This document shows positions 8,230 through 23,599 of a stretch of 46,432 nucleotides of DNA, piece by piece. The notes beneath the pieces were generated by a model, which did no database searches, was not told the DNA's origin, and saw only the letters and a list, made by a program, of their open reading frames with translations. The DNA comes from Alistipes sp. (lineage in GTDB: Bacteria; Bacteroidota; Bacteroidia; Bacteroidales; Rikenellaceae), in the NCBI GenBank assembly GCA_017416915.1, contig JAFQAN010000022.1:1-46432 (forward strand), written 5' to 3'. Positions within the stretch are counted from its first letter, which is position 1, and every line of letters begins with the position of its first letter. The position numbers and the translations under genes were made by a program.

Positions 8230-8355
8230 CTTGGCGTGAGAGTGGTGCAGATGTGGTGCCAAGTCGAAGTTTGACTGGATGGGGGTGTACTTGGGCGTAC
8301 ATCCCCATTCAGACGAACGAGCTTGGTGCCGCTGATGCGCCGCTATCACGCCAAG
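8230..8355. repeat. GTAC-tip hairpin unit A
   Basis: A 126-base imperfect hairpin. Its ends pair (CTTGGCGTGAGAGTGG with CCGCTATCACGCCAAG), the inner arm at 8257-8286 pairs with 8302-8330 using several G-U pairs, and the tip is GTAC-TTGGGC-GTAC (8287-8300). It ends 2 bases before the stop codon of the microprotein at 8358. It belongs to the eight-member family described in the findings. Confidence 0.8.
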
Positions 8356-8370
8356 GGCTACTCGCCCTTG
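8352..8370 (-). terminator. Small stem-loop spanning the microprotein stop codon
   Basis: CAAGGGC-TACTC-GCCCTTG forms a 7-bp stem whose loop contains the stop codon of the 37-residue gene. It also reuses the last bases of hairpin unit A. There is no U-tract, so termination here is uncertain; it may act with unit A as a 3' end structure. Confidence 0.4.
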
Positions 8371-8471
8371 CGCACCTTATACCACTCAACCTTCCACGGC
8401 CAAATACGCAGCTTAAATATCGACCAGCCGCCAAATAGCCAATGCCACCATTTACGTTCCTTTTGTTCCAT
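8358..8471 (-). CDS. Tryptophan-rich 37-residue microprotein
   Basis: This short frame starts at ATG 8471-8469, two bases after the stop codon of the GntR regulator, so translation is probably coupled. It ends at TAG 8360-8358. The product begins MEQKERKWWHWLFGGW and has seven tryptophans (positions 8, 9, 11, 16, 24, 26, 30) in 37 residues, with many Lys/Arg, giving a basic amphipathic or interfacial character. There is no signal peptide and no long hydrophobic span. I do not recognise a family. Its place as the last gene of an ABC exporter operon suggests a small membrane-associated accessory or modulator of the transporter, but that is inference. It could be chance, although the coupling and composition argue for a real gene. 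Confidence 0.55.
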   Translation of the reverse strand: MEQKERKWWHWLFGGWSIFKLRIWPWKVEWYKVRKGE

Positions 8472-8473
8472 AA

Positions 8474-8824
8474 CTATCCGTTTTTAGAGTTACTCTTTAC
8501 CTCGATTATAAGTCCCAAGAGGAGCAGTCGCTCACGCAGCTTGGGCAGCTCCTCGTCGATAAACTTCTTACGCTCTATGGCACACATCCTCTCGCGCGCA
8601 CCCTCCGCCACAAAGAAGCCGATACCACGACGGTTGAAGATGACGCCGTCGGCCTCCAAATGTTCGTAGCTGCGCATCACCGTATTGGGGTTTACGCCCA
8701 CCGACGCCGCCATCTCGCGCACCGAGACGATACGTTCGCCCTCAGGCCACTCGCCCGAGAGTATGCGTTTGGCGATAAGTTCGTATATCTGTCGCCATAT
8801 CGGTTTTTCCTCGTTGAAATGCAT
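8474..8824 (-). CDS. GntR-family transcriptional regulator, YtrA subfamily
   Basis: This 116-residue protein has an N-terminal winged helix-turn-helix of the GntR type (residues 8-75: PIWRQIYELIAKRILSGEW, then VREMAASVGVNPNTVMRSYEHLE and the wing RRGIGFFV). Only a short helical tail of about 40 residues follows. The lack of a large effector domain marks the YtrA subfamily, whose members repress neighbouring ABC transporter operons. It is the fourth gene of the ABC operon, 3 bases after the membrane subunit. Two sequences resembling the known YtrA operator (AGTGTA-N12/13-TACACT) overlie the promoters of this operon and of the divergent outer-membrane gene, so it probably represses both. Confidence 0.9.
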   Translation of the reverse strand: MHFNEEKPIWRQIYELIAKRILSGEWPEGERIVSVREMAASVGVNPNTVMRSYEHLEADGVIFNRRGIGFFVAEGARERMCAIERKKFIDEELPKLRERLLLLGLIIEVKSNSKNG

Positions 8825-8827
8825 AGG

Positions 8828-9472
8828 CTACATCTTTAATTGGCGATAACGCAACATAAAGTACCCCGCTACCCACGCCACAGCCGTAACAGCGATATTT
8901 ACCCACATCTTGACATCTTGAACATCGGCGGGCGAGGCGTACTTCGAGATAAGATATTGCACAAAGATTGTTATAATTGCCGCCAGAACATAGGGCAAAA
9001 AGGCTCGACGACGAATAGCCAGACTTATCAACAGCGCCACACCCTGCGTACCAAGAAGACCGATATAGAGGTAGTGGTTTTTGAATATCAGCGTCTCGAA
9101 ATAGGGGAATATCGGCTCATATATTGATATTGACACCGACACCGCCGCGGCATACACCGCCACAAACCACGCAGCAAGCACCACCGTCGTATTGAGCAGT
9201 ATGAAGGCATAACGCTCAGCAACAGAGACAGGCAGCGTATTGGCTACAACAAGGCTCTGACGACGGCGCAAATCACGTGTCGAGAGCATTGCGACATAGA
9301 AGATGTCGAAGAGCGCAACGGTGAGGCACATCGAGATACCCGTCTCGGATCTCTTCGTGATGAGCGTCATCAGCACAGGTAGCGCAAATGTGCCGAGTAG
9401 CAACATAAGGTACTTATTTTGGTTTTCGGTGTAATGCTTGACAAAGAGTCGAAGCAGAGCATTTGGTCTCAT
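8828..9472 (-). CDS. ABC transporter membrane subunit, putative
   Basis: A 214-residue integral membrane protein with about six hydrophobic spans (for example LMLLLGTFALPVLMTLI near residue 22 and AVTAVAWVAGYFML near the end) and a basic C-terminus RYRQLKM. The first ATG is at 9472; a TTG three codons earlier is less likely. It shares a plan with the next upstream gene, including SEQ-like VSVAERYAFILLNT matching VSAEEQMLFMLFNS in the partner, so the two are diverged paralogues that may form a heterodimeric permease for the ATPase encoded at 10207-11034. The substrate is unknown. Confidence 0.75.
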   Translation of the reverse strand: MRPNALLRLFVKHYTENQNKYLMLLLGTFALPVLMTLITKRSETGISMCLTVALFDIFYVAMLSTRDLRRRQSLVVANTLPVSVAERYAFILLNTTVVLAAWFVAVYAAAVSVSISIYEPIFPYFETLIFKNHYLYIGLLGTQGVALLISLAIRRRAFLPYVLAAIITIFVQYLISKYASPADVQDVKMWVNIAVTAVAWVAGYFMLRYRQLKM

Positions 9473-9498
9473 AACAATCAATTATATTGTAAGTTAAA

Positions 9499-10203
9499 CT
9501 ACCATTTCATCTGTCGGCGACGCAACGCCACGTAGCACAACGCATAGAGTATCACAGGAACAAGGCAGTAGAGCGTCATAGCGACCTCGGCGATATACTC
9601 CGTATCGCGTACTGGATTAAAGGGCAGTGGCGAGGCTGTCAATATCTCCACCAAGCCCCACAACAGAAGAACAACCGCCACGAAGGCGACCACATAGCTC
9701 ATCAGCAGGCTACGACGTGCCAGCAGGTTGATAAGTAGCGCCCCTGCGGCCGTAATCTGCACGAAGAGGTAGAGCGGCCACCGCAAGAAGACCTCGTCGA
9801 AGAAGAGCGTAAGGACGTACTCTAAGCCAAACGTATCCTCAAAGGTAACTAATCCGATAAGTAGCACAGACAACGAGGCGACAACGAACAGCAGTGGCAT
9901 CACTACCGCCGAGTTGAAGAGCATAAAGAGCATCTGCTCCTCAGCCGACACGGGAAGCGCAGCGGCGATATATCTTGTGCCGCGGTCTCGCATAAGATAG
10001 GTGTTACACTTGGCGATACCCAAGCCACAAAAGAGATATACGACAAGCGACGCTTCGACACCATTTACCACACTATCCGAGAGCAGCGAGAAGATTAATG
10101 GCACTGCCATAATCTCCAAAAAGAGTGTGAGATATTGTCGCCACAGCGCGGCATAGTGGTAACGTCCAAAGGCGACAGCACGTCGTAGAGATAGTGTTGC
10201 CAT
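9499..10203 (-). CDS. ABC transporter membrane subunit, putative
   Basis: This 234-residue protein has about six membrane segments (LTLFLEIMAVPLIFSLL, VVMPLLFVVASLSVLLIGLV, YVVAFVAVVLLLWGLV, LYCLVPVILYALCYVAL) and ends in RRRQMKW. The start lies 3 bases from the ATPase stop, so they are translationally linked. It shares the local motif LPVSAEEQMLFMLFN with LPVSVAERYAFILLN of the downstream gene, pointing to an old duplication. I infer it is one half of a heteromeric exporter in the YtrA-type operon. Confidence 0.75.
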   Translation of the reverse strand: MATLSLRRAVAFGRYHYAALWRQYLTLFLEIMAVPLIFSLLSDSVVNGVEASLVVYLFCGLGIAKCNTYLMRDRGTRYIAAALPVSAEEQMLFMLFNSAVVMPLLFVVASLSVLLIGLVTFEDTFGLEYVLTLFFDEVFLRWPLYLFVQITAAGALLINLLARRSLLMSYVVAFVAVVLLLWGLVEILTASPLPFNPVRDTEYIAEVAMTLYCLVPVILYALCYVALRRRQMKW

Positions 10204-10206
10204 AGC

Positions 10207-11034
10207 CTACCTAATAAAGAGTTCCGATATTGCCTTGCGGTTGGCTGTTGCGGCGTTGAAGAGCAACTCGATATTCAACGAAGACTCCTCGCCACTGTCG
10301 TTTACCGCCACCGCCACATCGCCTACAACGCTGCGCTCACGATATAGCACCTCCGCCCCATCCGACACGCGACCGAAGCTCAGACGGCTACATATCTCGG
10401 CAGTGGTGGCATTGAGCGCAACACCCTCCGTATCGAGGATGATGATATTGTCGATAAGCTGCTCTACATCAGCAACCTGATGTGTCGAGATAACGACCAT
10501 ACGTTCATCATCGACATAGCCCGCCAGCAGACGACGAAAGGCACCCTTCGACGGTATATCTAAGCCGTTGGTCGGCTCGTCGAGAAGCAGCATACGCACG
10601 TTGCACGCCAGAGCAAAGGCGATATATGCCTTCTTGCGCTGACCCATCGACAGAGAGTGCAGACGCACGTCGGCATCTACGTTAAGCTCGCGGCAGTAGC
10701 CGAGCATCTGCTCCATATCGAAATTGGGATAGAATGGCGCGGTTATCGCAGCATAACGTCTCAGCGAGACATTGGGTAGGTCAAACTCCTCTGGAACGAT
10801 AAACATACTACTCAGCATCTCGGGGTGGCGCTCCATTGGATTACGACCATCAACACATACCCGACCAGAATCGGGACGCATAATGCCGCAGACGATTTTC
10901 AGCAGCGTGGTCTTACCTATGCCGTTGCAGCCCAAAAGACCGTGTATATGACCCGTCGAGAGGTTGAGTGTGATGTTGCTCAAAACAGGATGTTTGCGTC
11001 GATAGGCAAACGAGAGGTTATTCAGCTCTATCAT
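10207..11034 (-). CDS. ABC transporter ATP-binding protein (YtrA-operon type)
   Basis: A 275-residue ATPase with Walker A GCNGIGKTT (35-43), the ABC signature LSMGQ (128-132), Walker B LLLLDEP (148-154) and the H-loop STHQ (about 186). A C-terminal extension of about 70 residues follows the nucleotide-binding domain. It energises the two membrane proteins encoded directly downstream. In YtrA-type systems such transporters are induced by cell-envelope-acting compounds; that link is by family only. The gene leads the operon and its promoter carries a YtrA-like operator. Confidence 0.9.
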   Translation of the reverse strand: MIELNNLSFAYRRKHPVLSNITLNLSTGHIHGLLGCNGIGKTTLLKIVCGIMRPDSGRVCVDGRNPMERHPEMLSSMFIVPEEFDLPNVSLRRYAAITAPFYPNFDMEQMLGYCRELNVDADVRLHSLSMGQRKKAYIAFALACNVRMLLLDEPTNGLDIPSKGAFRRLLAGYVDDERMVVISTHQVADVEQLIDNIIILDTEGVALNATTAEICSRLSFGRVSDGAEVLYRERSVVGDVAVAVNDSGEESSLNIELLFNAATANRKAISELFIR

Positions 11035-11075
11035 AATTAAAAATGTTTGTTTGTCGTTGTTAGTGCGAAGTACAT

Positions 11076-11131
11076 CGTGTATCGCACACTTAATACACTA
11101 CAAAGGTAGCCATATTTTTTGAAGATGCAAA
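11076..11131 (-). promoter_or_regulatory. Promoter and YtrA-like operator of the ABC operon
   Basis: On the minus strand TTTG (11131-11128), 19 bases, then TACCTTTG (11108-11101) is a very good Bacteroidota promoter. One base further on lies AGTGTA-N12-TACACG (11099-11076), a near-perfect inverted repeat covering the start site. Bound repressor would block initiation. The 370-base stretch 11041-11409 otherwise holds the divergent promoter and a leader hairpin, with no gene. Confidence 0.75.
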
Positions 11132-11227
11132 CTTTTCGCAATATTTTTTCGAGCGAAATCCCACACAAACGCCATAAATACATATATATAAGGTATAAAA
11201 ATTTATTGTGATTTTTTGCTCAAAAAA

Positions 11228-11284
11228 TTTGGAGGTATGAAATATTGCTGATATATTTGCAGTGTATTAGTTGAGTAATACACT
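11228..11284 (+). promoter_or_regulatory. Promoter and YtrA-like operator of the outer-membrane barrel gene
   Basis: TTTG (11228-11231), 20 bases, then TATATTTG (11252-11259) forms the promoter. One base later comes the operator AGTGTA-N12-TACACT (11261-11284), in which AGTGTATTA and TAATACACT are a perfect 9-bp inverted repeat. The spacing from -7 box to operator is the same as at the divergent ABC promoter. Confidence 0.75.
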
Positions 11285-11318
11285 AAAATTAGGCAACAAT
11301 TAAAAAAAATTGCAGTTC

Positions 11319-11372
11319 GGTGTTACTATTTCGACAAGTTATACGTTATATAGTTGTCGGAGCGAAGACACC
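11319..11372 (+). other. Leader hairpin upstream of the barrel gene
   Basis: In the roughly 145-base untranslated leader, GGTGT (11319-11323) can pair with ACACC (11368-11372), enclosing CGACAA (11332-11337) paired with TTGTCG (11354-11359). It may affect mRNA stability or be a regulatory leader. No known riboswitch is recognised. Confidence 0.3.
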
Positions 11373-11409
11373 AAGACGAGCAAACAGTAAAAATTAAAAC
11401 ATAGAGACG

Positions 11410-13800
11410 ATGAAAAGGTTAGGTTTCTTGCTTCTTGCAAGCATACTCTTTACGGCGGCGGCAGCCACAGCACAGCGTTATAACGTCACGGGACGCGTCA
11501 TAGATAGCGAGCAGAAGGTCATACCCTACGCCACTGCTGTCATCCTTGATGGCAACACACAGGCGGCAGGTGGCACGACAAACGACAAGGGAGAGTTCTC
11601 ACTTAGCGTAGCTGCGGGCGACTACACGCTGCAACTCTCGTTCATCGGCTACACGACATACCGCACCGAGATTAGCGTCGAGCAGTCGCTCGACCTCGGC
11701 GACATAACGCTTGTGGCAGATGCCACGCAGATTGACGAGGTGGTGGTAACGGCGCAGCTTATACGCCGCGAGGCAGACCGCTTTGTGGTGGATGTTGCCA
11801 ACTCGCCGATAGCCATAGGCAAGGATGGCGAGGAGCTACTTAAATCGGCACCAGGCGTATGGATAAACGACGACAAGGTGTCGATAAATGGAGCGTCAGG
11901 CTCGAAGATATACCTTAACGACCGTGAGGTACGCTTGGATGATGCACAGCTGATGGCATATCTGCGCTCGCTACGCGCCGAGGACATACAGCGCATCGAG
12001 GTAGTGCCACAGGTGGGTGCCGACTACGACGCATCGTCATCGGGCGGAGTAATAAAGATTACGACAAAGCGCCGCTTGGATATGGGTCTTATGGGTTCGG
12101 CTTCGCTTGTTGCGAATGGCACAAAGGGTATGTGGAATGTGATGCCGTCGCTATCGCTAAACTACTCGCAGGGCAAGATTAACAGCTACGCACGACTCTG
12201 GGCGGGCGGCAATGGTCAGAGCTACGAGACGGTAGAGCATACCGACTACACTTCGACATCTATTATCGACGCTGCGACGAAGATGGACGATCGCTCAACG
12301 TGGGCAGGCGGCAATGTAGGCGTCGTCTATGATATTAACGACAAGCACTCGCTGGGTGCCGAGTTGCAGTACAACTATTGGGACAGCAACGACAACAGCA
12401 CGACATGGACCGAACGCACATTTGGAGGGGCTACCACACGCAGTGATGGCGACTACAACAGCCACACACGCAGCAATATGCTCACCGCCACACTCAACTA
12501 CATATATAAGATAGACGATAAGGGTTCTACGGTAAAACTTATCGGCGACTACACCCGCTCGTCAAACCCCAGAGGCAACAACTACTACGACACATCGTAC
12601 GACTATGCAACGCCGCAGCTTGTGCGCGACTCAACCCACCGCTACAACTCCAACAGCCTCTACCAGCTCGGCACAGCAACCCTCGCCTTGGAGAAGGTGC
12701 TATCGCCCAAGGTAACGCTCAAAGCGGGTGCAAAATATACCTATAACAACAACGCCAACGACGCTACGTATGAATACCTCAAAGGCGACATTTGGCAGCA
12801 CAACGTCGAGCGCAGCTACGACATAGGCTACACGGAGAATATCGGCGCTGCGTACATCATCGCCTCGGCACGTCTCGGTCGCGTAAGCCTTGTGGGCGGT
12901 CTGCGTGGCGAATATACGTCGTTCCGCTCGAAAGATGGCCTGGTAAAGCAGGACTACTTCAACCTCTTTCCTAATGCCAACATATCGTACTCGCTGACCG
13001 CCGATGGCGCATACTCGCTCATCGCTCAGTACTCGCGCACCATATCGCGACCATCGTTTTGGGCATTGTCGCCCAACGAGACAAAGGTGTCGGAGTATAT
13101 GATACAGCGTGGCAACCCCGAGCTAAAACCGTCGTACAACAACTCGCTGTCGGTAACCGCCGTGCTGAAATATAAATACAGCATAAGTGTAGGTATGCAG
13201 ATTATGCAGAACGCCATACAGCAGACGACGCTTGTCGATAAGCAAAATCCCGAGCTGCTGATACTGCAAACCATCAACTACCCCACGCTTAACAACTTCT
13301 ACGCCTCGGTAACGCTCCCCTTCCAAATTACGAAGTGGTGGTCGGCAAACTTGAACTTTACGGGTATGTATATGGGACAGCGCATATATGAGGGCGAGGC
13401 TGTGCGCCGCAACTTTATGTGCGTGGCAAATGCGCAGACGTCGTTCACGCTGCCCAAGAACTTCTTTATCGAGTTGGACGGTATGTATATGCACGGCGCA
13501 CAGGCAGGCAACACGAAGATTGGCGACATGTATAACCTCAACCTGACTTTGAAGAAGCGTATGTTCGACAATAAACTGACCATCGCCCTCGGCGCACAGA
13601 ATATCGTTACCTCCAAGCAGCGCATATTTATCGAGGAGGAGACGTTTACTCGCGTTATGACGGCAGACCAGCCCTGGAATAGGGTCTCTGCGAAGCTCAG
13701 CATAAGCTATAACTTCAATGCTGGTAAGTCGTTCCGTGCCAAGTCGGTAGAGAGTGGTTCGGCAGAGGATAAGGGTCGTCTCGGCGGCGGCGGAAACTAA
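11410..13800 (+). CDS. Outer-membrane beta-barrel protein, TonB-dependent-receptor-like
   Basis: The 796-residue protein starts with a signal peptide (cleavage near AATAQ, residue 22). A carboxypeptidase-regulatory-like beta-sandwich follows (about 25-105, with VTGRVIDSEQKVIPYATAVI), then a plug-like domain (about 110-215: VVVTAQLIRREADRF, GVIKITTKRR) and a long barrel of alternating aromatic strands to the C-terminus. This plan fits the outer membrane beta-barrel family related to TonB-dependent receptors. It is divergent from the ABC operon and carries the same operator, so the two are likely co-induced. It could export or import the transporter's substrate or be an envelope-stress porin. 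The ligand is not predictable. Confidence 0.85.
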   Translation: MKRLGFLLLASILFTAAAATAQRYNVTGRVIDSEQKVIPYATAVILDGNTQAAGGTTNDKGEFSLSVAAGDYTLQLSFIGYTTYRTEISVEQSLDLGDITLVADATQIDEVVVTAQLIRREADRFVVDVANSPIAIGKDGEELLKSAPGVWINDDKVSINGASGSKIYLNDREVRLDDAQLMAYLRSLRAEDIQRIEVVPQVGADYDASSSGGVIKITTKRRLDMGLMGSASLVANGTKGMWNVMPSLSLNYSQGKINSYARLWAGGNGQSYETVEHTDYTSTSIIDAATKMDDRSTWAGGNVGVVYDINDKHSLGAELQYNYWDSNDNSTTWTERTFGGATTRSDGDYNSHTRSNMLTATLNYIYKIDDKGSTVKLIGDYTRSSNPRGNNYYDTSYDYATPQLVRDSTHRYNSNSLYQLGTATLALEKVLSPKVTLKAGAKYTYNNNANDATYEYLKGDIWQHNVERSYDIGYTENIGAAYIIASARLGRVSLVGGLRGEYTSFRSKDGLVKQDYFNLFPNANISYSLTADGAYSLIAQYSRTISRPSFWALSPNETKVSEYMIQRGNPELKPSYNNSLSVTAVLKYKYSISVGMQIMQNAIQQTTLVDKQNPELLILQTINYPTLNNFYASVTLPFQITKWWSANLNFTGMYMGQRIYEGEAVRRNFMCVANAQTSFTLPKNFFIELDGMYMHGAQAGNTKIGDMYNLNLTLKKRMFDNKLTIALGAQNIVTSKQRIFIEEETFTRVMTADQPWNRVSAKLSISYNFNAGKSFRAKSVESGSAEDKGRLGGGGN

Positions 13801-13876
13801 ACAATGCCGAGCAACGCGTAGAGTTGAGTAGAGCGCGGTCCTTATAAGAACGGCTGGGACGACAGGAGCGCGAAAA

Positions 13877-14063
13877 GGCGCGCGATTGACTGGGAAAGAC
13901 TGGGAACGGCTGAGAAAGACTGGGTGGTGCGCCGACGAGACGGCAGGACGACGAGACCACGAGACTACGAGACCGCGGGACCACGGGACTACGAGACTAT
14001 GAAAAACACAGGCATTCTCAGTCGTTCTCAGGCATTCTCAGCCGTGCGAGGCTGTGCGAGGCA
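13877..14063. repeat. Composite intergenic repeat B
   Basis: It has the same order as repeat A: GCGCGCGATTGACTGGGA, four forward decamers (about 13886-13925), eight CGRGACNN octamers (13936-13999), TGAAAAACACAGGC, reverse decamers (about 14011-14042) and the GTGCGAGGCTGTGCGAGGCAG spacer. The short piece 13801-13876 after the barrel gene stop shows nothing recognisable. No gene is supported here. Confidence 0.8.
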
Positions 14064-14188
14064 GCTTGTCGTCAGAGTGGTGTAGCAGTACCGCCGATAA
14101 AGATATTGGGCTGGATGGATAGTACTGAGCGTACATTCCATTCAGCCCAATGATTGAGGCGGCGCTGATGCGCCGCTATCACGACAAG
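14064..14188. repeat. GTAC-tip hairpin unit B1
   Basis: A 125-base hairpin. The ends are CTTGTCGTCAGAGTGG and CCGCTATCACGACAAG; the G-to-T change in the left end is matched by C-to-A in the right end relative to unit A. The inner arm ATTGGGCTGGATGGA pairs with TCCATTCAGCCCAAT, and the tip is GTAC-TGAGC-GTAC. Confidence 0.8.
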
Positions 14189-14190
14189 TG

Positions 14191-14318
14191 CTTGGCGGGA
14201 GAAGGGTTGCAGATGTGTTCTATCGCAAAAGAGAGTGCCGTGGGATAGTACTAAAACGTACAGCCCACGGCACTCTACTTTTTGGGATGGGACGCAGATG
14301 CGCCCTTATACTGCCAAG
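14191..14318. repeat. GTAC-tip hairpin unit B2
   Basis: A 128-base hairpin directly after B1, with ends CTTGGCGGGAGAAGGG and CCCTTATACTGCCAAG. The arm AGAGTGCCGTGGG (starting 14232) pairs perfectly with CCCACGGCACTCT, and the tip is GTAC-TAAAAC-GTAC. It ends 3 bases before the stop codon of the DPP III gene and so lies in that gene's 3' untranslated region. Confidence 0.8.
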
Positions 14319-14321
14319 CCC

Positions 14322-16334
14322 CTAATTCAGCGACGGCAAGAACGAATAATCCCTTCCATACTTCATCATCTGCTGCACATAGTTCGCAGGATACGAGATA
14401 CGTACATCAATGATATGACCAGTCTTATCATATACAGGCAGGTACTCGGGGTTTACGAAGCCACCATAAGGCTCAATATTCAAGGCATTGTTACGCTCTA
14501 TAACCTCGTTATGGAGCTTCGCATCTACCTTCACAGCATAGTCCTCAACAAGGGCGCGGCAAGCCTCATAGTCGCCCTCCGACTTGATGCGCTGCACCTC
14601 GCACAGAAGCTCACCAAATAGCTCGCGGAGACGCTCAAAGTCGTTTACGACGATATAGTGCTTACCATCCTTCTCTATCCACTCGATGACATTCTCCGCC
14701 TTGCCCTTCTCGTAGCACCACTCGGCGATGAGCTTACGGTTGCGCATGTGAGACTCCTCGACATTCTTGCCAGGCTCGATACGCGACAGCTGTGTCATCA
14801 TACCATTCATAATATACTTGCTATACTGCGCCCACGCCACGTCAAGCGTCGGGATAAGACCAATCTCCACGAGCTTCTCATCACCGAGGTAGTAGAGCGC
14901 AAAGAGGTCGGCACGTGCCTCCTCCAATGTAGAAGAGTAGGTGCGTAGCTCGTCGCCCTTGACACCTGGGGCAAGCTGTCCCGAGCCGTGACCAAGACAC
15001 TCGTGCAGGTCGGTATGGAGGTCATCGCTGAGCTTACCATACTTCGCCATACGCTCGCGGTCCTCGGCGCGCAGCACAAACTCCTCCATAAAGCCGTTGC
15101 CCTGTGCAGCCTTATCGTAGGCGTAGGTTATGTTGTCGATGGTTACCGACTTCGAGCCATGCTCCTTACGTATCCAGTCGGCATTAGGCAGGTTGATGCC
15201 TATCGCCGTTGCGGGGTAGCAGTCGCCACCGAGCATCGCCACGGTGATAACCTTTGCCGAGACGCCCTTAACCTTCTTCTTGCGATATTTGGGGTTGATA
15301 GGCGCGTTATCCTCAAACCACTGCGCGTTGGCAGCCATAATCTCCGTACGATGGCACGCCTCCTCGTCGCGGAAGTTTACCACCGACTCCCACGACGCCT
15401 TGCGACCGAGAGGGTCGCCATAGCTCTCGATGAAGCCATTGACGAAATCTACATTCGACTTGGTGTCCTGCACCCACAACACGCTATAATCGTCGAAATC
15501 CTTCAAGTCGCCCGAGCGGTAGTACTTGATAAGTGCCTCGACCACCTCGCGCTGCTGCTTGTTTGCCACCGTTGCAGCCTTCTCCAACCAATATACAATC
15601 TGCTCGATAGCAGGCGAATACATACCGCCTACACGCCATACACGCTCCACAACATTACCCTCCGCATCGCGCATCAGCTTCGAGTTAAGACCATACGATA
15701 TAGGCTCGGGGTTGTTGCCGTCGGCAGCTACCATCTTGGCGTAGAAGTCCTCGACATCCTGCTGCGTGACGCCCTCGTAGTAGTTGTTCGCCGAGGTTAT
15801 CACCACATCATCACCCTGCGTCTGATTGAGGCGCGAGGGGTACAACTCGGGGTCGAAGATGATGGCGCAGAGGAAGTCGTTGTCGATATGACGGTCTGTG
15901 TACTTCATATATCGCGACAGCTGCTCGCGGAACCACGCCTCCGAGAACTCGGGGACAAACTTGTCGTTCGAGTAGTGGTGGTGAATACCGTTAGCAAACC
16001 ACACCTTTTTCAAGTACTTCTCGAATGCCTTGAAGTCGTCGCACTCGCGGTCTGTTGTCGAGGTATATATCTTTTCGAGCGTACGACGTACGGCAAGGTT
16101 GTACTTAAAGTTCTGGTCGAAGAGTATGTCGCGACCACACTTCGCCGCCTCCGAGAGGTAATATACATACTCCTTCTCTTTGAGCGTCAGATTATCAAAG
16201 CCTGGCACCTCGTAGCGTATCACCTTGACATCGTCGAAGCGATCGACAATCCACGGCTTCTCTGGCTCTGCGGCAGTTACGGCTGTTGCCGCTGCAAAAA
16301 TTCCCATAGCGGTAAATCCTAAAAGTTTGTTCAT
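14322..16334 (-). CDS. Dipeptidyl peptidase III (M49 family metallopeptidase)
   Basis: A 670-residue zinc exopeptidase that removes dipeptides from the N-terminus of oligopeptides. The M49 signature HECLGH is at residues 444-449 (zinc ligands H444 and H449, catalytic E445), and the second motif EEARAD supplies the third zinc ligand (E472). The 28-residue spacing from first histidine to this glutamate agrees with bacterial members. An N-terminal signal peptide (about 1-22, ending TAVTAAEPE) suggests a periplasmic location, unlike the cytosolic eukaryotic enzyme. Transcribed alone from a good promoter at 16375-16405; two hairpin units lie immediately downstream. Confidence 0.92.
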   Translation of the reverse strand: MNKLLGFTAMGIFAAATAVTAAEPEKPWIVDRFDDVKVIRYEVPGFDNLTLKEKEYVYYLSEAAKCGRDILFDQNFKYNLAVRRTLEKIYTSTTDRECDDFKAFEKYLKKVWFANGIHHHYSNDKFVPEFSEAWFREQLSRYMKYTDRHIDNDFLCAIIFDPELYPSRLNQTQGDDVVITSANNYYEGVTQQDVEDFYAKMVAADGNNPEPISYGLNSKLMRDAEGNVVERVWRVGGMYSPAIEQIVYWLEKAATVANKQQREVVEALIKYYRSGDLKDFDDYSVLWVQDTKSNVDFVNGFIESYGDPLGRKASWESVVNFRDEEACHRTEIMAANAQWFEDNAPINPKYRKKKVKGVSAKVITVAMLGGDCYPATAIGINLPNADWIRKEHGSKSVTIDNITYAYDKAAQGNGFMEEFVLRAEDRERMAKYGKLSDDLHTDLHECLGHGSGQLAPGVKGDELRTYSSTLEEARADLFALYYLGDEKLVEIGLIPTLDVAWAQYSKYIMNGMMTQLSRIEPGKNVEESHMRNRKLIAEWCYEKGKAENVIEWIEKDGKHYIVVNDFERLRELFGELLCEVQRIKSEGDYEACRALVEDYAVKVDAKLHNEVIERNNALNIEPYGGFVNPEYLPVYDKTGHIIDVRISYPANYVQQMMKYGRDYSFLPSLN

Positions 16335-16474: not shown

Positions 16475-16498
16475 CCGCAAAATAACAGATAGGAGACT

Positions 16499-16867: not shown

Positions 16868-16870
16868 CGG

Positions 16871-17160: not shown

Positions 17161-17162
17161 AG

Positions 17163-17289: not shown

Positions 17290-17291
17290 AC

Positions 17292-17324
17292 AAAAAAAAG
17301 AGAGCTATAAAAAAGCTCTCTTTT
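17292..17324 (-). terminator. Rho-independent terminator of rplU-rpmA
   Basis: On the minus strand AAAAGAGAGCT pairs with AGCTCTCTTTT around a 7-base loop and is followed by a run of eight T. It lies 20 bases beyond the rpmA stop. Confidence 0.85.
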
Positions 17325-17343
17325 CTCTCTCCGTGCAATACGG

Positions 17344-17604
17344 TTACTCAGCAATAGGAGTAACGCTCACATAAGACTTACCAGAAGCCTTCTTGCAGAA
17401 GCCGACGGTACCATCGACCAAAGCAAACAGAGTGTGGTCCTTACCCATACCCACGTTCTCACCGGGGTTGTGTACTGTGCCTCGCTGACGAACGATAATG
17501 TTACCCGCCTTAGCGAACTGACCACCGAAAAGCTTTACACCGAGTCGCTTGCTCTCTGACTCACGGCCGTTCTTCGAACTACCTACACCTTTTTTGTGTG
17601 CCAT
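17344..17604 (-). CDS. rpmA: 50S ribosomal protein L27
   Basis: An 86-residue protein with the L27 hallmarks: N-terminus [20 protein letters not shown], then GVKLFGGQ and the [10 protein letters not shown] block. The N-terminal tail reaches the peptidyl transferase centre in the ribosome. There is no N-terminal cleavable extension of the Firmicutes type. It follows rplU by 20 bases and ends at the terminator at 17292-17324. Confidence 0.98.
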
Positions 17605-17624
17605 TTTCTACCAATTTTTAAGGG

Positions 17625-17936
17625 TTACGCATTAATTTCCTCAACGAGAACCTGCGTCAGATACTGACGATGACCGTTACATTTCTGATAGCCTGTTCTA
17701 CGCTTCTTCTTGAAGACAAGGACCTTGTCGTCCTTCAAGTGCTTCAAGATCTTGCACTTTACCGAGGCGCCTTCTACCACAGGTGCGCCCACCTTAACCT
17801 GACCGTCGTTATCCACAAGCAGGACTTTGTCGAAGCTCAAAGACGAATCTACTTCGCCTTGGAGACGGTGAACATAGAGCTTTCGACCCTTCTCAGCCTT
17901 GAACTGCTGACCTGCAATCTCTACTATTACGTACAT
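17625..17936 (-). CDS. rplU: 50S ribosomal protein L21
   Basis: A 103-residue 23S rRNA-binding protein. The family pattern is clear: [22 protein letters not shown] at the start, a central [16 protein letters not shown] and the [17 protein letters not shown]-terminal RNA-binding block. It is the first gene of the usual rplU-rpmA pair. Confidence 0.98.
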
Positions 17937-17965
17937 TTAATCTAAATAATTGAATGTTTAGCGCA

Positions 17966-17995
17966 CAAAGATACAAACATTTTCTCAAATTGCAA
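17966..17995 (-). promoter_or_regulatory. Promoter of rplU-rpmA
   Basis: On the minus strand TTG (17995-17993), 19 bases, TATCTTTG (17973-17966). The leader before the rplU ATG is only about 22 bases, too short for an L21-type autoregulatory leader. Confidence 0.6.
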
Positions 17996-18078
17996 CACTC
18001 CCCCACATTTTTTTTCATTTCTCAGGCTTTTTGCAATATTGCGCAGTGGTGGCACACTTTTGGTGCGTGGTGCGACGT

Positions 18079-18486
18079 ATGAGCAATATGCAACAACGAT
18101 ACCGCGTCGCCATCCTCGGCAGCTCGCTACATATTGCGCGTGCCATAGCTGCGCGCCTGCAATCGGAGCCATATACCGTACTGGTCTTCGACAACGCCGA
18201 CGAACTCCTCGACGTGGCGGCATTCCACCACCTCAGCCTCGTACTCGTCGCCGTCGATAACTACTCCACCACGGACAACGCCCTATATCGCACGGTGGAG
18301 CGGCTGCGGCGCGCAGATGTCGAGATATTTGTCATCACGCACCACCACAGCGTACGCCACACACTACACCTTTTGGGTGCGGGTGTTAGGCAGTGTATGA
18401 CCTTTCCTATCGCCGTGGAGCGGCTACGACGCAAGATAATAGAACATTTGGCTACAAAGCCGATATATATGGAGCCTGTATCGTAG
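18079..18486 (+). CDS. Degenerate response-regulator receiver-like protein
   Basis: A 135-residue protein, counting from the ATG at 18079 (a TTG further upstream is less likely). The alternation of hydrophobic strands and helices resembles a CheY-like receiver: YRVAILG, TVLVFD, LVLVAVD with D60 where the phosphoacceptor would be, VEIFVIT, then the end of the fold at TFPIAVERLRRKI. The acidic pair near the N-terminus is replaced by LGSS, and the conserved lysine before the cis-proline is phenylalanine (F109-P110), so normal phosphorylation is doubtful. There is no output domain. It lies between divergent rplU and cysQ. Function unknown; a pseudo-receiver or protein-interaction role is an inference. 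Confidence 0.6.
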   Translation: MSNMQQRYRVAILGSSLHIARAIAARLQSEPYTVLVFDNADELLDVAAFHHLSLVLVAVDNYSTTDNALYRTVERLRRADVEIFVITHHHSVRHTLHLLGAGVRQCMTFPIAVERLRRKIIEHLATKPIYMEPVS

Positions 18487-18515
18487 CACGGCACAATAAA
18501 ATATTGTCGCACAAT

Positions 18516-18547
18516 GTTGTAAATATCGAAATATATTCTTAACTTTA
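18516..18547 (+). promoter_or_regulatory. Promoter of cysQ
   Basis: GTTG (18516-18519), 20 bases, TAACTTTA (18540-18547), followed by a leader of under 15 bases to the ATG at 18562. Confidence 0.5.
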
Positions 18548-18561
18548 CAAAACCAACCATA

Positions 18562-19413
18562 ATGATACCTAAAACCATTGCTACGATGATAGACGACCGC
18601 ATCAGAGAGTACCTACTACCACAGCAGTTCAACGCTGCGGTACGTGCAGGCGCCGCCATTATGAAGATATACAAACATAGCGACGACTACGACATATCGC
18701 TCAAAAGCGACCACACGCCAATCACCGTTGCCGACCGTATGGCGCACAACACCATCAAGGAGGCACTGGGTACCACGCGCATCCCCATACTCTCGGAGGA
18801 GGGACGCCAGATGCTCTACGACGAGCGCCGCAACTGGGAGCTATATTGGTTGGTTGATCCGTTGGATGGTACGGTAGAGTTTATCAAGGGCAACAACGAG
18901 TTTACGGTGAACATAGCCCTTATGGAGCAGAACGAGTGCATCAGCTCGGTGATATATGTACCCTACCACCACAAGATATATATCGCTGAGAGGGGTCGTG
19001 GCGCGTGGGTTATGCACGGCGTAGAGCCAGACGCCTTGGCAGCATATAGCTACGACGAGATACATAGCAATATGGTGTCATTGCCTCTTGCCGAGGCTCG
19101 TCACGACGTCTTCCGCGTGGCGGTGTCGCGCTCACACCAAACCGACGAGACACATAGCCATATCGCCACACTGCGCGAGCAGCACCCCGACTTGGAGGTT
19201 ATCGAGCAGGGCAGCTCGTATAAGTTCTGCCTGCTTGCCGAGGGCGTTGCCGACTACTACATACGCACCACTACCACATCGGAGTGGGATACCGCCGCAG
19301 GCGAACTTATCCTCGCCGAGACGGGCGGCACTACCCTATCGTACCCCGAGGGCAAACGCCTGTCGTATAATAAAGAGGTGTTAGATAACCCGTGGTTTGT
19401 CGCCAAGAGATAA
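18562..19413 (+). CDS. cysQ: 3'(2'),5'-bisphosphate nucleotidase CysQ
   Basis: A 283-residue inositol-monophosphatase-fold enzyme that should hydrolyse 3'-phosphoadenosine 5'-phosphate to AMP, clearing a by-product of sulfate assimilation. Metal-site motifs are in order: LSEEG (78-82), the hallmark WLVDPLDGT (97-104) and SEWDTAAGELILAETGG near residues 240-256. Length and motifs are typical. It is a single-gene unit with its own promoter, convergent with the lipoprotein gene beyond repeat D. Inositol monophosphatase activity is an alternative, but the SDHTPIT segment favours CysQ. Confidence 0.9.
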   Translation: MIPKTIATMIDDRIREYLLPQQFNAAVRAGAAIMKIYKHSDDYDISLKSDHTPITVADRMAHNTIKEALGTTRIPILSEEGRQMLYDERRNWELYWLVDPLDGTVEFIKGNNEFTVNIALMEQNECISSVIYVPYHHKIYIAERGRGAWVMHGVEPDALAAYSYDEIHSNMVSLPLAEARHDVFRVAVSRSHQTDETHSHIATLREQHPDLEVIEQGSSYKFCLLAEGVADYYIRTTTTSEWDTAAGELILAETGGTTLSYPEGKRLSYNKEVLDNPWFVAKR

Positions 19414-19485
19414 GCTACGTCGCTGACAAAACGGGACAGGGGAGCAACTGAGAACGGCGGGAGGCGCGAGATTAGCTGCGTGGCA

Positions 19486-19615
19486 GTGCAAGAGAGTGCG
19501 GGCTGTGCGTGGCAGTACCACCGATAAAGAGATTGGGCTGAATGGATAGTACTAAACGTACACTCCATTCAGCCCAATTGTTTAGGCGGCGCTGATGTGC
19601 CGCTATCACGACAAG
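19486..19615. repeat. GTAC-tip hairpin unit D (degenerate left end)
   Basis: A unit of about 130 bases. The right end CCGCTATCACGACAAG is intact, and the arm ATTGGGCTGAATGGA pairs perfectly with TCCATTCAGCCCAAT (a near copy of B1); the tip is GTAC-TAAAC-GTAC. The left end has decayed to AGTGCAAGAGAGTGCGG, so the start is approximate. Upstream, 19430-19485 holds a worn remnant of the decamer/octamer block (CGGGACAG, CTGAGAACGG, GGCGCGAGATT). Confidence 0.7.
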
Positions 19616-19632
19616 GGGTCTTGCGACCCCTT
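19613..19632 (-). terminator. Stem-loop downstream of the 939-residue lipoprotein gene
   Basis: AAGGGGTC-TTGC-GACCCCTT is a perfect 8-bp stem with a tetraloop 19 bases past the stop codon. There is no clear T-run, so it may act together with hairpin unit D. Confidence 0.5.
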
Positions 19633-19650
19633 ATCGAATCTAATCAAAGA

Positions 19651-22470
19651 CTACATCTCAGCCTTGATCATAAAGGGCTCGAAGTAGTTACCCTCAGCAT
19701 CACACCAAGTGGTCCAAATCTCCATCATACCCTCAGTACCATAAAATACATCACCTATAACACCAGGAACCTCTACCCAATTCTCAATCCAGTTCCAGTC
19801 AGCATCATACTCACCCTTATCTACGAAGTAGCCATCAGCGCTGTACTCGCAAACAATAACTTCATCGTGAGAAGAGATATACTGAATCATAGCTGTTGCA
19901 CTGGTTGTATCAATACCAAACTCGGTGAAGTTACCAACATGCTCAGCAATAGAGTATGCGGTGTAGCCCTCCTTAGGAGCTACATACCACTTAAATGTAT
20001 AGAAGTCAGCAACAATCTCCTCCTCATACATTGCAACAACGGGCTTGCTGCTCTCCCACTCTGCGTCGGTCTTGTAGCGAATAGTACCCATATTCATTGT
20101 GGGGGTAAACTCAACAGCAGTTACCTTTGACAGCTTGAAGTTCTCATCCATAGCAGCAACGCAAACTACATATGTTGAGCCAGCAGCACAACCCTTGTAG
20201 GTAATCTGACCGTTCTCGAATGAGCTACCATAATACGAAGCTGCCGTATTATTATCTGAGTGGTGAACAGTGTATGGGCTATCTGAGTTCAAAACAAAAT
20301 ATGTAGATGCGCCATCAGCAGATGCCTTACATCTCTCTTTCCAATCATTGCTGCTAACACCCATTACCTTATAGAGGAACTTAACGGCACCATCACAAGC
20401 AACATCAATCTTAACACTCTCGTAGTTAAGGTCTGAAACCTCCACATCAACAACGAGGTCGCTGTACTCGATAGCCTTGTAGCCATACTCATAGGCAATG
20501 GGCTTACCCAACTTACCATCAGCATCAGCAGCCACAGCAAAGAGCATAAACCTATCACCAGGCTCACCCTCAACCGTCCAAGTACCAGCCGTACACCAAA
20601 TAGTATCGCCACCGTTCTTTACTGTCTCTGCCTTATTCTCGGGATCCATCAAGTACTCAATAATAAGCTCATCGGTATTGTAAGCAGCAGCCTCAAATAC
20701 GGGAACATACTTGAAGTAAACAAATGGCACCTTATCGGCATTAGCATTCAATACTACGGTCATCTGAGTATAGTCGTTGTAAGTGTCCGCCTCATTAACA
20801 GTAAACTCGATAGCACCACCAGATGTCTCCAAAGCCTTGGTAGCGAACTCCCAATAGAGGACATCGCTCTCTGTAAATACCAAAGACTCGTTCTCGGGAA
20901 CAATCCAGAAGATGTAATCATGACCAGGCAGTGCAGAATAGAAGCTCTCCAAACCTGAGATAGGACCAGTATAATTCAACTGAGTATTCGCATAGCCCCA
21001 CTGGAAGTAATAGTTGTTATCATTTGCATAGCTTGCATAATACTTAGTCGAGAACTCATCGGCATTGCTAATACCACAGAGGTAGCTATTAGCACCCTGC
21101 AACGAGAACTCTACATCTACGTCCAAGATACTCTGGTTAGTAACCTTGAAGTCAGCAACCAAATGGCGATAATCAAGAGTGATCAAATCGAATTCCGTGG
21201 CAATCATACCATCATAATTGGCATTCCACATACCTGGGCAAGCCCATATAACGTATTCGGCACCAGGAGTTAGCTCTACTGAAGAGCCGTCCATATAGCT
21301 GAGAAGTTCATCATACGCATAGAACAACTCATTGCCATAATAAAAGTCAAGCATACCATTGAACTGAGCAGGATAGCTGTAATAAGGGCAAGCCACAACC
21401 TCAGCTACAATCTTATCACCGTCAAACTCTGACTTAGGAACAAAACCGAACCATACAACACCTGCACAATAAGGATCCCAACCATTATTAACAAAGGTTA
21501 CGCCCTCTGAGTCAGCGCTGATAGTAACAGCCTTAGACGAAACTCGCATCTTAGCGATAGCAGAACTTCCGTTCTCGAAGGTTACAAGCATCTTAACCTC
21601 GCCACCCTCAGAAGCAGCACCCGAAGCAATTGCCTCACCAGAGGGAGCAGTAAAGTAGATCTCTACCTCACCAATAGCGCCAAAGTTCTCCTTAGCGTAC
21701 TCGTCCTCAACGACCTCAACAGACCAACCTGCGGGCAACTGGAACATATAATCAGCATACTCGCCAATGTTAGCATACAACGGGAGAGCCGTTGTAGTGC
21801 CAGGAGCAGCATACGCAGCATCTGTCCACACTGCAATAGCCTGACCCTCAACGTGTACCTTAACTACGGTACCATCAGCCATTGTGAACTGAGCGTAGAG
21901 AGGAATCGGGTTATCGTTCTCGTCGAACTGCCACTGAGAGTAGATAATCTCAGCCTTAACAACGCCAGTGTAAGTGCCAGTAGCTACCCAGCTATTACCG
22001 CCGTCGAACGATACCTCAACTGAGTTGGTCTCCTCGTTTACACGAGTCATAGGCTCTGCACCGATAACGGGGCAGTTTGCACCATTTACAGAGATAAGAA
22101 CAGCCTCGCCCTCAGCATTGTACTGAGCCCAATACTTAACGCCATCGTAATCAACGATAGTGATAACGCCATCGAGGTTAGCCTCGGGCTGAACGGTAAA
22201 TACGGTGTCATCAGACAAGGTAACGGTAGTAGTACCATCGTCGTTGGTAACAACACTCTTAACGGTTACCTGACCATCAACAAGGGCTCTGAGCTGGTCG
22301 ATTTGAGACTGCAAGTCATCGCGAAGCTGAGCAAGCTCCTTCTTCACGTTGTCAATCTCACCACGCAATTCGGTATCGTCGTACTGACACGACACAACCG
22401 ATGAAGCCAACATAGCCACAACAACAGTGCAGCCAATGATAGCTTTCAGATTAGAGAAAAACTTTTTCAT
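19651..22470 (-). CDS. Large surface lipoprotein with coiled-coil stalk (DUF4988-like)
   Basis: A 939-residue protein with a lipoprotein signal (lipobox SVVSC, C28). A heptad-rich coiled coil follows (ELRGEIDNVKKELAQLRDDLQSQ region, about 33-66), then a short beta domain (VTVTLSDDTVFTV) as in DUF4988 Bacteroidota surface proteins. The rest is beta-rich. At least three similar segments begin near residues 430, 545 and 680 (YRHLVADFKV, GGAIEFTVNEAD, YSDLVVDVEV), each with a W/Y-rich body, probably Ig or fibronectin-like domains. Acidic residues soon after the cysteine (QYDD) fit surface export. There is no enzymatic motif; I infer adhesion or glycan binding. It has its own strong promoter. Confidence 0.75.
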   Translation of the reverse strand: MKKFFSNLKAIIGCTVVVAMLASSVVSCQYDDTELRGEIDNVKKELAQLRDDLQSQIDQLRALVDGQVTVKSVVTNDDGTTTVTLSDDTVFTVQPEANLDGVITIVDYDGVKYWAQYNAEGEAVLISVNGANCPVIGAEPMTRVNEETNSVEVSFDGGNSWVATGTYTGVVKAEIIYSQWQFDENDNPIPLYAQFTMADGTVVKVHVEGQAIAVWTDAAYAAPGTTTALPLYANIGEYADYMFQLPAGWSVEVVEDEYAKENFGAIGEVEIYFTAPSGEAIASGAASEGGEVKMLVTFENGSSAIAKMRVSSKAVTISADSEGVTFVNNGWDPYCAGVVWFGFVPKSEFDGDKIVAEVVACPYYSYPAQFNGMLDFYYGNELFYAYDELLSYMDGSSVELTPGAEYVIWACPGMWNANYDGMIATEFDLITLDYRHLVADFKVTNQSILDVDVEFSLQGANSYLCGISNADEFSTKYYASYANDNNYYFQWGYANTQLNYTGPISGLESFYSALPGHDYIFWIVPENESLVFTESDVLYWEFATKALETSGGAIEFTVNEADTYNDYTQMTVVLNANADKVPFVYFKYVPVFEAAAYNTDELIIEYLMDPENKAETVKNGGDTIWCTAGTWTVEGEPGDRFMLFAVAADADGKLGKPIAYEYGYKAIEYSDLVVDVEVSDLNYESVKIDVACDGAVKFLYKVMGVSSNDWKERCKASADGASTYFVLNSDSPYTVHHSDNNTAASYYGSSFENGQITYKGCAAGSTYVVCVAAMDENFKLSKVTAVEFTPTMNMGTIRYKTDAEWESSKPVVAMYEEEIVADFYTFKWYVAPKEGYTAYSIAEHVGNFTEFGIDTTSATAMIQYISSHDEVIVCEYSADGYFVDKGEYDADWNWIENWVEVPGVIGDVFYGTEGMMEIWTTWCDAEGNYFEPFMIKAEM

Positions 22471-22555
22471 AAAATAGTTATTAAAATGGTTTGAAATAGT
22501 GTTTTATGTGTTTTAACGAAACATCGCACAATAGTAATCGCGATATTTCATATTA

Positions 22556-22586
22556 CAAAAGTAGTAATAATTCTTTGATTTGCAAA
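22556..22586 (-). promoter_or_regulatory. Promoter of the 939-residue lipoprotein gene
   Basis: On the minus strand TTTG (22586-22583), 19 bases, TACTTTTG (22563-22556), an ideal match. The leader is about 80 bases. Confidence 0.7.
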
Positions 22587-22699
22587 TTTTTTAGCGGAAA
22601 TAACGATATTTTTTTGCATAGTTATCGCATAATTAGTTGGGATATATGGATAAATTGCGTGATACAATGCATAAAAAAGCGTTTACAGGGGCTGAGACG

Positions 22700-23130
22700 A
22701 GGGTATGCGACGGGGAGCAATGGGTGGCGCGCGGGAGGCGGGGACGGCGGGGTGCGGGGTGCGGGAAGGTGCGCGATTGACTGGAAGGGGCGCGGGAGGC
22801 GGGGACAGCGCGGGAGATGGAGAGGGGCGCGGGAGATGGGGAGGGGCGCGCGATTGACTGGGAGGGGCGCGATTGACTGGGAGGGGCGCGCGATTGACTG
22901 GGAATGACTGAGAATGACTGAGAATGACTGAGAAGCGCGCCTACGAGACGGCGGGACTGCGGGACGACGGGACGACGAGACTGCGAGACGACGAGACTGC
23001 GAGACGACGAGACGACGAGACCACGGGACGACGAGACTGCGAGACAACGGGACAACGGGACAACGGGACACCTGAAAAACACAGGCGTTCTCAGGCGTTC
23101 CCAGGCATTCTCAGTCGTGCGTGGCAGTGC
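22700..23130. repeat. Composite intergenic repeat E (longest copy)
   Basis: GC-rich purine repeats (GGGGCGCGGGAGATGG type, 22720-22850) lead into several copies of GCGCGATTGACTGGGA and forward decamers TGACTGAGAA (about 22890-22934). Sixteen exact-length CGRGACNN octamers follow (22944-23071), then CTGAAAAACACAGGC and reverse decamers (about 23085-23115). All frames read through it give Ser/Arg/Val repeats and no credible protein. 22587-22700 holds AT-rich sequence without a recognised feature. Confidence 0.8.
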
Positions 23131-23150
23131 GCTATCGAGCGTGGTCGATT

Positions 23151-23288
23151 AGTGAATTTAGAGAGTTTAATGAGTTTAGGGATGTGCGGGCGATGCCCGC
23201 TACAAACCAAGTATCGGACGTCGTACCGCTAAATCGGGCGGCGCGCTCCCTAACCTCTCTAAATTCTCTAATCTCACTAAACTCCCTA
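23151..23288. repeat. Second inverted tandem pair inside cluster E
   Basis: The left array, starting AGTGAATTTAGAGAG and ending TTTAGGGA (to about 23181), is the inverse of the right array from TCCCTAACCTCTCTAAATTC to ACTAAACTCCCT (about 23247-23288). About 65 bases between them include GCGGGCGATGCCCGC. It mimics the decamer architecture with a different word. Confidence 0.65.
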
Positions 23289-23292
23289 CTAA

Positions 23293-23320
23293 CTGCGCGC
23301 TATCGCCACGCTCCCAAGCG
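23293..23320. repeat. 28-base dispersed repeat, copy 2
   Basis: Differs by one base from 16871-16898. It sits 6 bases before the left end of unit E1. Confidence 0.6.
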
Positions 23321-23326
23321 AGATTG

Positions 23327-23453
23327 CTTGGCGTCAGAGTGGTGCAGATGTGGTACATCGCAAAAGAGAGTACCACGGGATAGTACTAAAACGTACAGCC
23401 CGTGGTACTTTACTTTTAGGGATGTGCCGCAGATGCGCCGCTATCACGTCAAG
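23327..23453. repeat. GTAC-tip hairpin unit E1
   Basis: A 127-base unit with ends CTTGGCGTCAGAGTGG and CCGCTATCACGTCAAG. The arm GAGTACCACGGG pairs with CCCGTGGTACTT, where B2 and C2 have GTGCCGTGGG with CCCACGGCAC: both sides changed together. The tip is GTAC-TAAAAC-GTAC. Confidence 0.8.
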
Positions 23454-23471
23454 CTCTTATCACAGAAATTG

Positions 23472-23599
23472 AATTTTTGTCAGAAGGGTGCCGAGTGCTA
23501 CACTCGGCAAAAATGCCGTCGATGGGTAGTACTTGCGCGTACGTCCCATTGACGGCATTTTTTGTTAGGGGACGCAATCGACCCCTTATCACAAAAATT
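23472..23599. repeat. GTAC-tip hairpin unit E2 with altered ends
   Basis: A 128-base unit whose ends are AATTTTTGTCAGAAGGG and CCCCTTATCACAAAAATT instead of the usual CTTGGCGT and ACGCCAAG, still fully paired. The arm TGCCGTCGATGGG pairs with CCCATTGACGGCA, and the tip is GTAC-TTGCGC-GTAC. An extra small hairpin GCCGAGTG-CTA-CACTCGGC lies on the left side (about 23489-23508). The right end overlaps the stop codon of the gene at 23598. Confidence 0.78.

Follow-up and report, generated by a model that had tools for sequence, protein, structure and literature searches.

The window studied here, a 46,432-nucleotide stretch of Alistipes sp. DNA (Rikenellaceae; contig JAFQAN010000022.1), carries eight copies of a hairpin-forming unit of about 127 bases. 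A covariance model (R1) built from 40 units of the same 1.97 Mb Alistipes-like genome, G000, finds at least 150 copies there, so that the first-pass annotation, which had described an eight-member family, understated its size. In our judgement these units are probably copies of a non-autonomous mobile hairpin element, similar to REPIN and ERIC, that is targeted to the 3' ends of genes. Three properties that were absent from the first-pass annotation lead to this reading: the fold is selected on one strand, the copies within a contig are oriented alike, and the 3' edge of the unit abuts gene ends. Taken together, the precision at stop codons, the uniform orientation and the strand-specific covariation point to a mode of insertion that can sense where a gene ends and, probably, which way the replication fork moves. 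To our knowledge, the small mobile palindromes of bacteria, e.g. REPINs, are tied to a known transposase, and we know of none that reads gene ends.

A fold selected on one strand

Covariation supports that the structure of the unit is selected, and that it is selected on one strand. Among the 40 units of G000, 95.1% of the paired cells are complementary, against a mean of 80.0% (sd 0.7) after shuffling; 23 of the 35 pairs have changed on both sides, and not one of 500 shuffles reached any of the five measures used. Sliding the partner columns by one to three positions lowers pairing to 30.5-49.9%. In a second set of 29 units, taken from this and other genomes, double changes occur in 29 of 38 pairs. 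The paired changes quoted in the first-pass annotation are thus real and belong to a wider pattern, and its suggestion of selection on structure holds both within the genome and across species. The covariance-model search of Bacteroidota genomes and the covariation test that it had proposed yielded more copies and strong covariation, with no match to a described family in the collections searched. Furthermore, mismatched cells on the unit strand are nearly all of one kind, with G.T outnumbering A.C by 191:12 in the first set and by 140:13 in the second, so that it is the fold of the unit strand on which selection acts. Strand mutation bias is expected to cause C-to-T change on a G-rich strand. 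As this would yield A.C rather than G.T on the unit strand, such a bias would not explain the excess. The tip is the most conserved part of the unit, while the outer ends vary (CTTGGCG, AATTTTTG and ATTTCTTG types).

All eight units of the window lie on its plus strand, namely A (8229..8356; tip GTACTTGGGCGTAC; 95.7 bits with R1), B1 (14064..14189; inner arms of the ATTGGGCTGGATGGA/TCCATTCAGCCCAAT type; 99.4 bits), B2 (14190..14319; 133.7 bits), C1 (17035..17161; 96.7 bits), C2 (17162..17290; 129.7 bits), D (19495..19616), E1 (23326..23454; 141.9 bits) and E2 (23472..23599; 99.2 bits). Of the properties first ascribed to all of them, the tip GTACT-N-GTAC and the long complementary inner arms are found in the folds of all eight, and paired outer ends in seven. 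The exception is unit D, initially placed at 19486, whose 5' outer arm is degenerate or lost and which scores 44 bits compared to 95.7-141.9 bits for the other seven. In unit E2 the outer stem is of another kind (AATTTTTGTC..CACAAAAATT), and the left half contains a small extra hairpin. With RNA parameters the plus strand folds markedly better than the minus strand in six of the eight, as in B2 (-80.8 versus -57.2 kcal/mol), whereas the two strands are nearly alike in D (-57.3 on plus, -53.4 on minus) and equal in E2 (-60.3 and -60.8). The difference in B2 is also seen with DNA parameters (-40.8 versus -29.0 for the other strand), and DNA folding of three of the plus strands gives energies far below those of dinucleotide shuffles (z of -7.7 to -9.9). 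The first-pass annotation had left open whether the unit acts as RNA or as a cruciform or mobile DNA end; the data favour a mobile element that acts as a folded strand, and would fit DNA and RNA alike.

Could the paired changes have arisen without selection? The units might be old, ERIC- or MITE-like remnants (MITE, miniature inverted-repeat transposable element) of a double-stranded transposon, in which template switching within the palindrome produced the paired changes. Paired change is known to arise from template switching, which could have acted here. Such switching should, however, give perfect palindromes, which is at odds with a G.T to A.C ratio of 191:12 on one strand. A length of about 127 bp, an imperfect palindrome, an intergenic location and a TA at many gene-side edges do recall ERIC/RU-1 as portrayed in the relevant part of PMC2759123. 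Conversely, the like orientation of 145 of 150 copies and the lack of a sequence match in the E. coli collection both argue against such remnants, and we regard this origin as improbable.

Placement at gene ends and orientation

The placement of the unit was analysed in an 845 kb sample of G000, made up of 40 stretches taken from contigs known to carry units. With R1 this sample holds 100 units in 69 clusters of one to four units each, a set compiled by hand from 191 rows with the omission of three rows cut by stretch ends and of lower-scoring rows on the opposite strand. Tandem clusters have several arm types side by side. In 57 of the 69 clusters, the next gene in the reading direction of the unit lies on the opposite strand. 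Where both flanks are known (52 clusters), 36 clusters are at most 8 nucleotides from the stop codon of that opposite-strand gene and 42 at most 20; under uniform placement 2.6 would be expected within the shorter distance, and 5000 simulations never exceeded eight. On the other side of the clusters, none out of 63 comes within 20 nucleotides. The genes in this count are guesses based on the longest open reading frame (ORF), and for E2 the wrong ORF was taken, so that this stop-adjacent unit is not counted as such. Within the window, the 3' edge of B2 is 2-3 nucleotides from the stop codon of a Peptidase_M49 gene (14322..16334, minus strand), and the end of E2 overlaps the stop codon of a minus-strand ORF (23598-24056). 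C2 directly follows the intrinsic terminator of a minus-strand gene (17344..17604) that we take, from its sequence, to be rpmA, encoding ribosomal protein L27. Units A and D are 118 and 35 nucleotides away from the next stop codon, respectively.

The junctions were inspected in 40 units from three other genomes (G017, G067 and G057), being the top-scoring unit of each stretch fetched for the best-scoring matches. In 26 of these the unit begins on the final base of the stop codon, e.g. ..TA|ATTTGTTGTGATAAGG; six genes extend ten bases into the unit and use its TGA, five have their stop codon 1-14 bases before it, and three units lack a long ORF ending there. Two of these three are L296, where the unit stands behind the rpmA terminator, and L311 (G067:C45:35100-37300), where the first base of the unit (1071-1199) is also the final base of a tRNA-Gln gene (998-1071). 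The 3' edge is precise and the 5' side variable; by eye, TA is frequent at the gene-side edge and usually missing at the other. As the first base of the unit can equally be counted as the last base of the stop codon (or of the tRNA), the cut may fall after a complete stop codon. RelE-type toxins cleave mRNA in the A site, and it is speculation on our part that the TA|A and TA|G junctions resemble the products of such cleavage.

In four of the ten abutted proteins scanned (TIM, GreA, YidD and peptidase S46), Pfam profile matches reach to within one or two positions of the C-terminus, so these stop codons look native. Further abutted genes encode a GroEL-like chaperonin, DnaJ and a type III glutamine synthetase. 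The family also reshapes the 3' ends of core genes (those for the GroEL-like chaperonin, TIM and GreA among them) in uncultured gut Bacteroidota. The gene at L288 of G017 is missing several C-terminal residues compared to G000, which means that an insertion can also land just inside a gene.

Copies on the same contig point the same way. Across 31 contigs, and according to a strand list compiled by hand, 145 of 150 copies (97%) have the majority orientation of their contig, where random assignment gives a mean of 100 and a maximum of 115 in 2000 draws; the genes in the sampled stretches lie in both directions. The local GC skew at third codon positions (GC3 skew), taken along the unit strand, is negative for 55 of the 69 clusters, positive for 13 and zero for one; the units are mostly on the G-poor strand. 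Under the usual skew convention, negative skew would give the unit strand lagging-strand identity, with the abutted gene codirectional with the fork. Five units have the minority orientation. The one on contig C14 sits in a stretch of reversed skew. On C5, C7 and C20 the skew along the strand of the minority unit is positive, which makes these three genuine exceptions to the skew rule. C6 holds two units, one per strand; the skew is positive for both of them, and they lie near a skew switch. This switch, from positive to negative GC3 skew at around 40 kb of C6 (loci L097 and L098), lies close to the two oppositely oriented exceptions, and may be the replication terminus. The family could serve to mark replication direction in fragmented metagenome-assembled genomes (MAGs).

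A placement of this kind might also be of use to the host. The hairpin would then stop or block transcription coming from the opposite strand and shield the 3' ends of leading-strand genes from antisense or head-on transcription, with copies spread by recombination and kept by selection. In agreement with this, the units sit antisense against stop codons, the better-folding strand is the one that would be present in such a transcript, and convergent gene pairs (+U-) are enriched, with 32 of 69 clusters compared to 89 among 528 neighbouring gene pairs, a set that takes in pairs within operons. However, 20 of the 69 clusters (-U-) have no gene reading towards the unit, an observation that also counts against an RNA form of the element. 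In the junctions inspected by eye no T-run follows the unit, and rpmA retains its own terminator yet has two units. Moreover, no copy was detected in 21 of 61 genomes of the genus, and G000 lacks a unit at most of the gene ends that are occupied in other species. We therefore consider such a host function rather unlikely.

Distribution, occupancy of gene ends and the search for a mobiliser

Copies were detected in 40 of the 61 genomes of the genus, this one included, with numbers per genome that range from zero to at least 56. A scan of genome contigs for the tip pattern returned at least 110 stretches. Among the 80 matches listed, 76 belong to Alistipes or Rikenellaceae MAGs, one to a Chitinophagaceae MAG and three to contigs of a single Spirochaetaceae MAG. 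These last two MAGs have five and six tip matches, respectively, and none for the reversed pattern. Their units form the same kind of long hairpin, with the unit strand folding better in every case folded, and a second covariance model (R2) gave seven of eight loci from them scores of 24-32 bits, with E values between 9e-6 and 7e-4; only 14.5 bits (E 0.14) was reached by the tandem at L286. Since all were found by way of the tip pattern, tip conservation in these two MAGs is a product of the search, and errors in binning are possible. The Spirochaetaceae units L277 and L279 abut an antisense stop codon, as probably does a third, L281, which is truncated at the end of its contig. Behind the L279/L194 unit lies a gene for a class II (D/K/N) tRNA synthetase. 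No match was found in 16 genomes of other families in the order. Across the phylum R2 found none in 394 other genomes, a search of low sensitivity, with eight candidates scored per genome under strict filters, that leaves absence unproven.

The occupancy of gene ends differs between species. Among 30 rpmA loci, G000 has two units and G067 one with other arms, all of them directly behind the terminator; in 27 no unit was detected, for some of which this is weak as the downstream stretch is merely 121 or 337 bases long. G017 also has a unit at rpmA. In G074 a unit (L126, 1128-1254, minus strand) lies about 300 nucleotides downstream of rpmA and on the rpmA strand; by eye, the stop codon that it appears to abut is that of the convergent gene. 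When 45 genes that have a unit elsewhere were queried against the 845 kb sample, 18 had a match, with the caveats that two query pairs are the same gene and that four of the matches (33-54% identity) are probably paralogues. Four matches in G000 were flagged as having a unit, and without L301 (46%), which was not counted, this leaves three secure cases; gene ends occupied in other species are thus mostly empty in G000. At one gene end that has a unit in both G000 and G011, the unit types differ. At L096, L105 and L101, remnants of about 13 bases from an older unit edge remain between the stop codon and the unit, which suggests repeated insertion at the gene-proximal edge.

Which enzyme could mobilise these units? 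Mobilisation by a RAYT/IS200 or an IS110 enzyme was considered but is not supported, as Y1_Tnp (PF01797) had no match in 14 genomes (draft MAGs; the E. coli control was positive) and Transposase_20 (PF02371) none in 19, again with a positive control. Y2_Tnp (PF04986), the profile for IS91/ISCR enzymes, likewise gave no match in 19 genomes, but did not match the control genomes either and is hence uninformative. The reverse transcriptase profile RVT_1 (PF00078) was found in seven of the 19, including the copy-rich G003 and G006.

These last matches bring up a retro-element resembling a short interspersed nuclear element (SINE), whose unit-strand RNA would be attached to the 3' ends of RNA or DNA and then turned into a DNA copy. 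Such a route would fit the precise 3' edge at stop codons, tRNA ends and terminators, the variable 5' side, the unit whose first base is the final one of a tRNA gene and the tolerance of G-U on one strand, besides the presence of RVT_1 in the two copy-rich genomes. G000 and seven other copy-bearing genomes examined have no RVT_1 protein, though, and no promoter-like 5' flank common to the species was seen by eye; as such, we give this route little credence.

For a mobile element targeted to gene ends, the following mechanism can be envisaged. The active form would be the folded unit strand, as single-stranded DNA or as RNA, and its recognition would depend mainly on the tip, which in the commonest type reads GGGATAGTACT..GTACAGCCC, and on an internal loop close to the base with conserved CAG/ATC. 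The 3' edge of the unit would be joined to DNA at the 3' end of a gene, whether behind a stop codon, a terminator or a tRNA, by an enzyme acting in trans that prefers genes read the same way as the replication fork moves. Reuse of the same gene end would build up tandem stacks, and the arms would drift while their pairing is kept. A bolder version, which we put forward only tentatively and believe to be doubtful as a whole, is that the units form an undescribed family of selfish folded strands, present in Bacteroidota and one Spirochaetaceae MAG and recognisable by a constant tip, that integrate at the 3' ends of fork-codirectional genes. The enzyme responsible would be something other than a known single-strand transposase or a reverse transcriptase that is consistently present. 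In function, they would be a bacterial counterpart of SINEs.

Several observations weigh against a mobile element of this kind. The Y1_Tnp and Transposase_20 profiles revealed no mobilising enzyme, bearing in mind that in draft genomes a missing gene is no proof, and RVT_1 is absent from the copy-bearing genomes G000, G004, G011, G017, G021, G022, G067 and G074. If the skew is read correctly, the better-folding strand is not the lagging-strand template, which is the one normally exposed at the fork. In the Chitinophagaceae MAG, none of the five units abuts an antisense stop codon, and the sites that species have in common (three secure cases among 18 genes) could also reflect a host function. 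Finally, neither target duplication nor excision is shown, and the closest species, which have 87-91% identity around rpmA, offer no near-identical pair of filled and empty sites.

Known families and neighbouring features

The statement in the first-pass annotation that no named family matches stands for the Rfam, viral, phage, plasmid and E. coli collections searched. In the window, Rfam has no match at gathering scores; at a relaxed limit, the matches in 13850-14330 are to seven models of miRNA or ctRNA, each scoring well short of gathering. A viral origin is not supported, with no viral contig having the commonest tip pattern; nor is a plasmid or phage origin, with blastn against those two collections returning nothing. 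A search of B1 and B2 together against the 20,395 records of the E. coli collection, at an E limit of 0.01, gave no match, and no description of the hairpin family was found in the open-licence PMC literature.

In behaviour, REPINs, which RAYT (TnpA-REP) transposases mobilise, are nearest to the 127-base family. Judging from the relevant part of the 2011 paper PMC3116915, they are likewise high-copy extragenic hairpins of fixed length with a presumed folded single-strand intermediate, and in their middle part length and hairpin capacity matter and compensatory changes are common, as in the arms here. For TnpA-REP, irregular stems underlie strand discrimination, according to a section of PMC8266576. 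A REPIN, however, consists of two inverted REPs with conserved ends, which include a tag tetranucleotide such as GTAG, and a variable middle, whereas here the tip is conserved, the ends vary and such tagged ends are not found. Uniform orientation and stop-codon abutment are not among the REPIN features given in that part of PMC3116915, and the Y1 transposase of the REPIN/RAYT system is missing from all 14 genomes searched. ERIC/RU-1, by the partial account in PMC2759123, is also a 127 bp stem-loop with TA at its ends and sometimes lies at gene 3' ends; it differs in that our units have no E. coli sequence match, a uniform orientation within contigs and one edge fixed at gene ends. IS200/IS605 elements and their miniature derivatives share strand-specific hairpins with our family, and are described in a portion of PMC6006769 as targeting the lagging-strand template. 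Against this stand the Y1 result (0 of 14 genomes), the lack of a constant target tetranucleotide and the fact that here the better-folding strand has lagging-strand identity. Because a Y1 transposase, conserved ends and an E. coli match were not found, we file the family as none of REPIN, ERIC and IS200/IS605. Group IIC introns insert directly behind transcription terminators, a likeness to our units, but here the element is a 127-base hairpin, G000 has no reverse transcriptase and no Rfam intron core matches in the window. Integron attC sites are folded single-strand sites behind stop codons, and the family resembles them in this respect; it differs by its conserved tip and its dispersal over the chromosome. 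The 127-base repeat looks like an undescribed family of small mobile elements, kin to the small mobile palindromes.

Upstream of units, at 7880-8229, 13850-14063 and 22700-23326, the window contains long arrays of degenerate 8-10 base repeats (CTGGGAATGA, GACGAGAC and CAGGCGTTCTCAGG), the outer parts of which are complementary and form a second, larger hairpin. The one upstream of unit A has its arms, of degenerate CTGGGAATGA-type repeats, at 7999..8032 and 8164..8197 on the plus strand, in an inverted repeat that is 88% complementary. The arms of the companion hairpins upstream of B1 (13906..13922 and 14029..14045) and of E1 (22906..22934 and 23088..23116), both on the plus strand, are inverted repeats as well. 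By eye, some units in related species are flanked by arrays of other repeat words. An inverted pair of degenerate AATTTAGAG/CTCTAAATT repeats with a 71-base spacer, at 23147-23273, is apparently a further type of degenerate-array hairpin. Downstream of the last unit, the window has a starch-use cluster (24219-37477) with genes for a TonB-dependent receptor and SusD-like proteins, and several genes of the alpha-amylase family.

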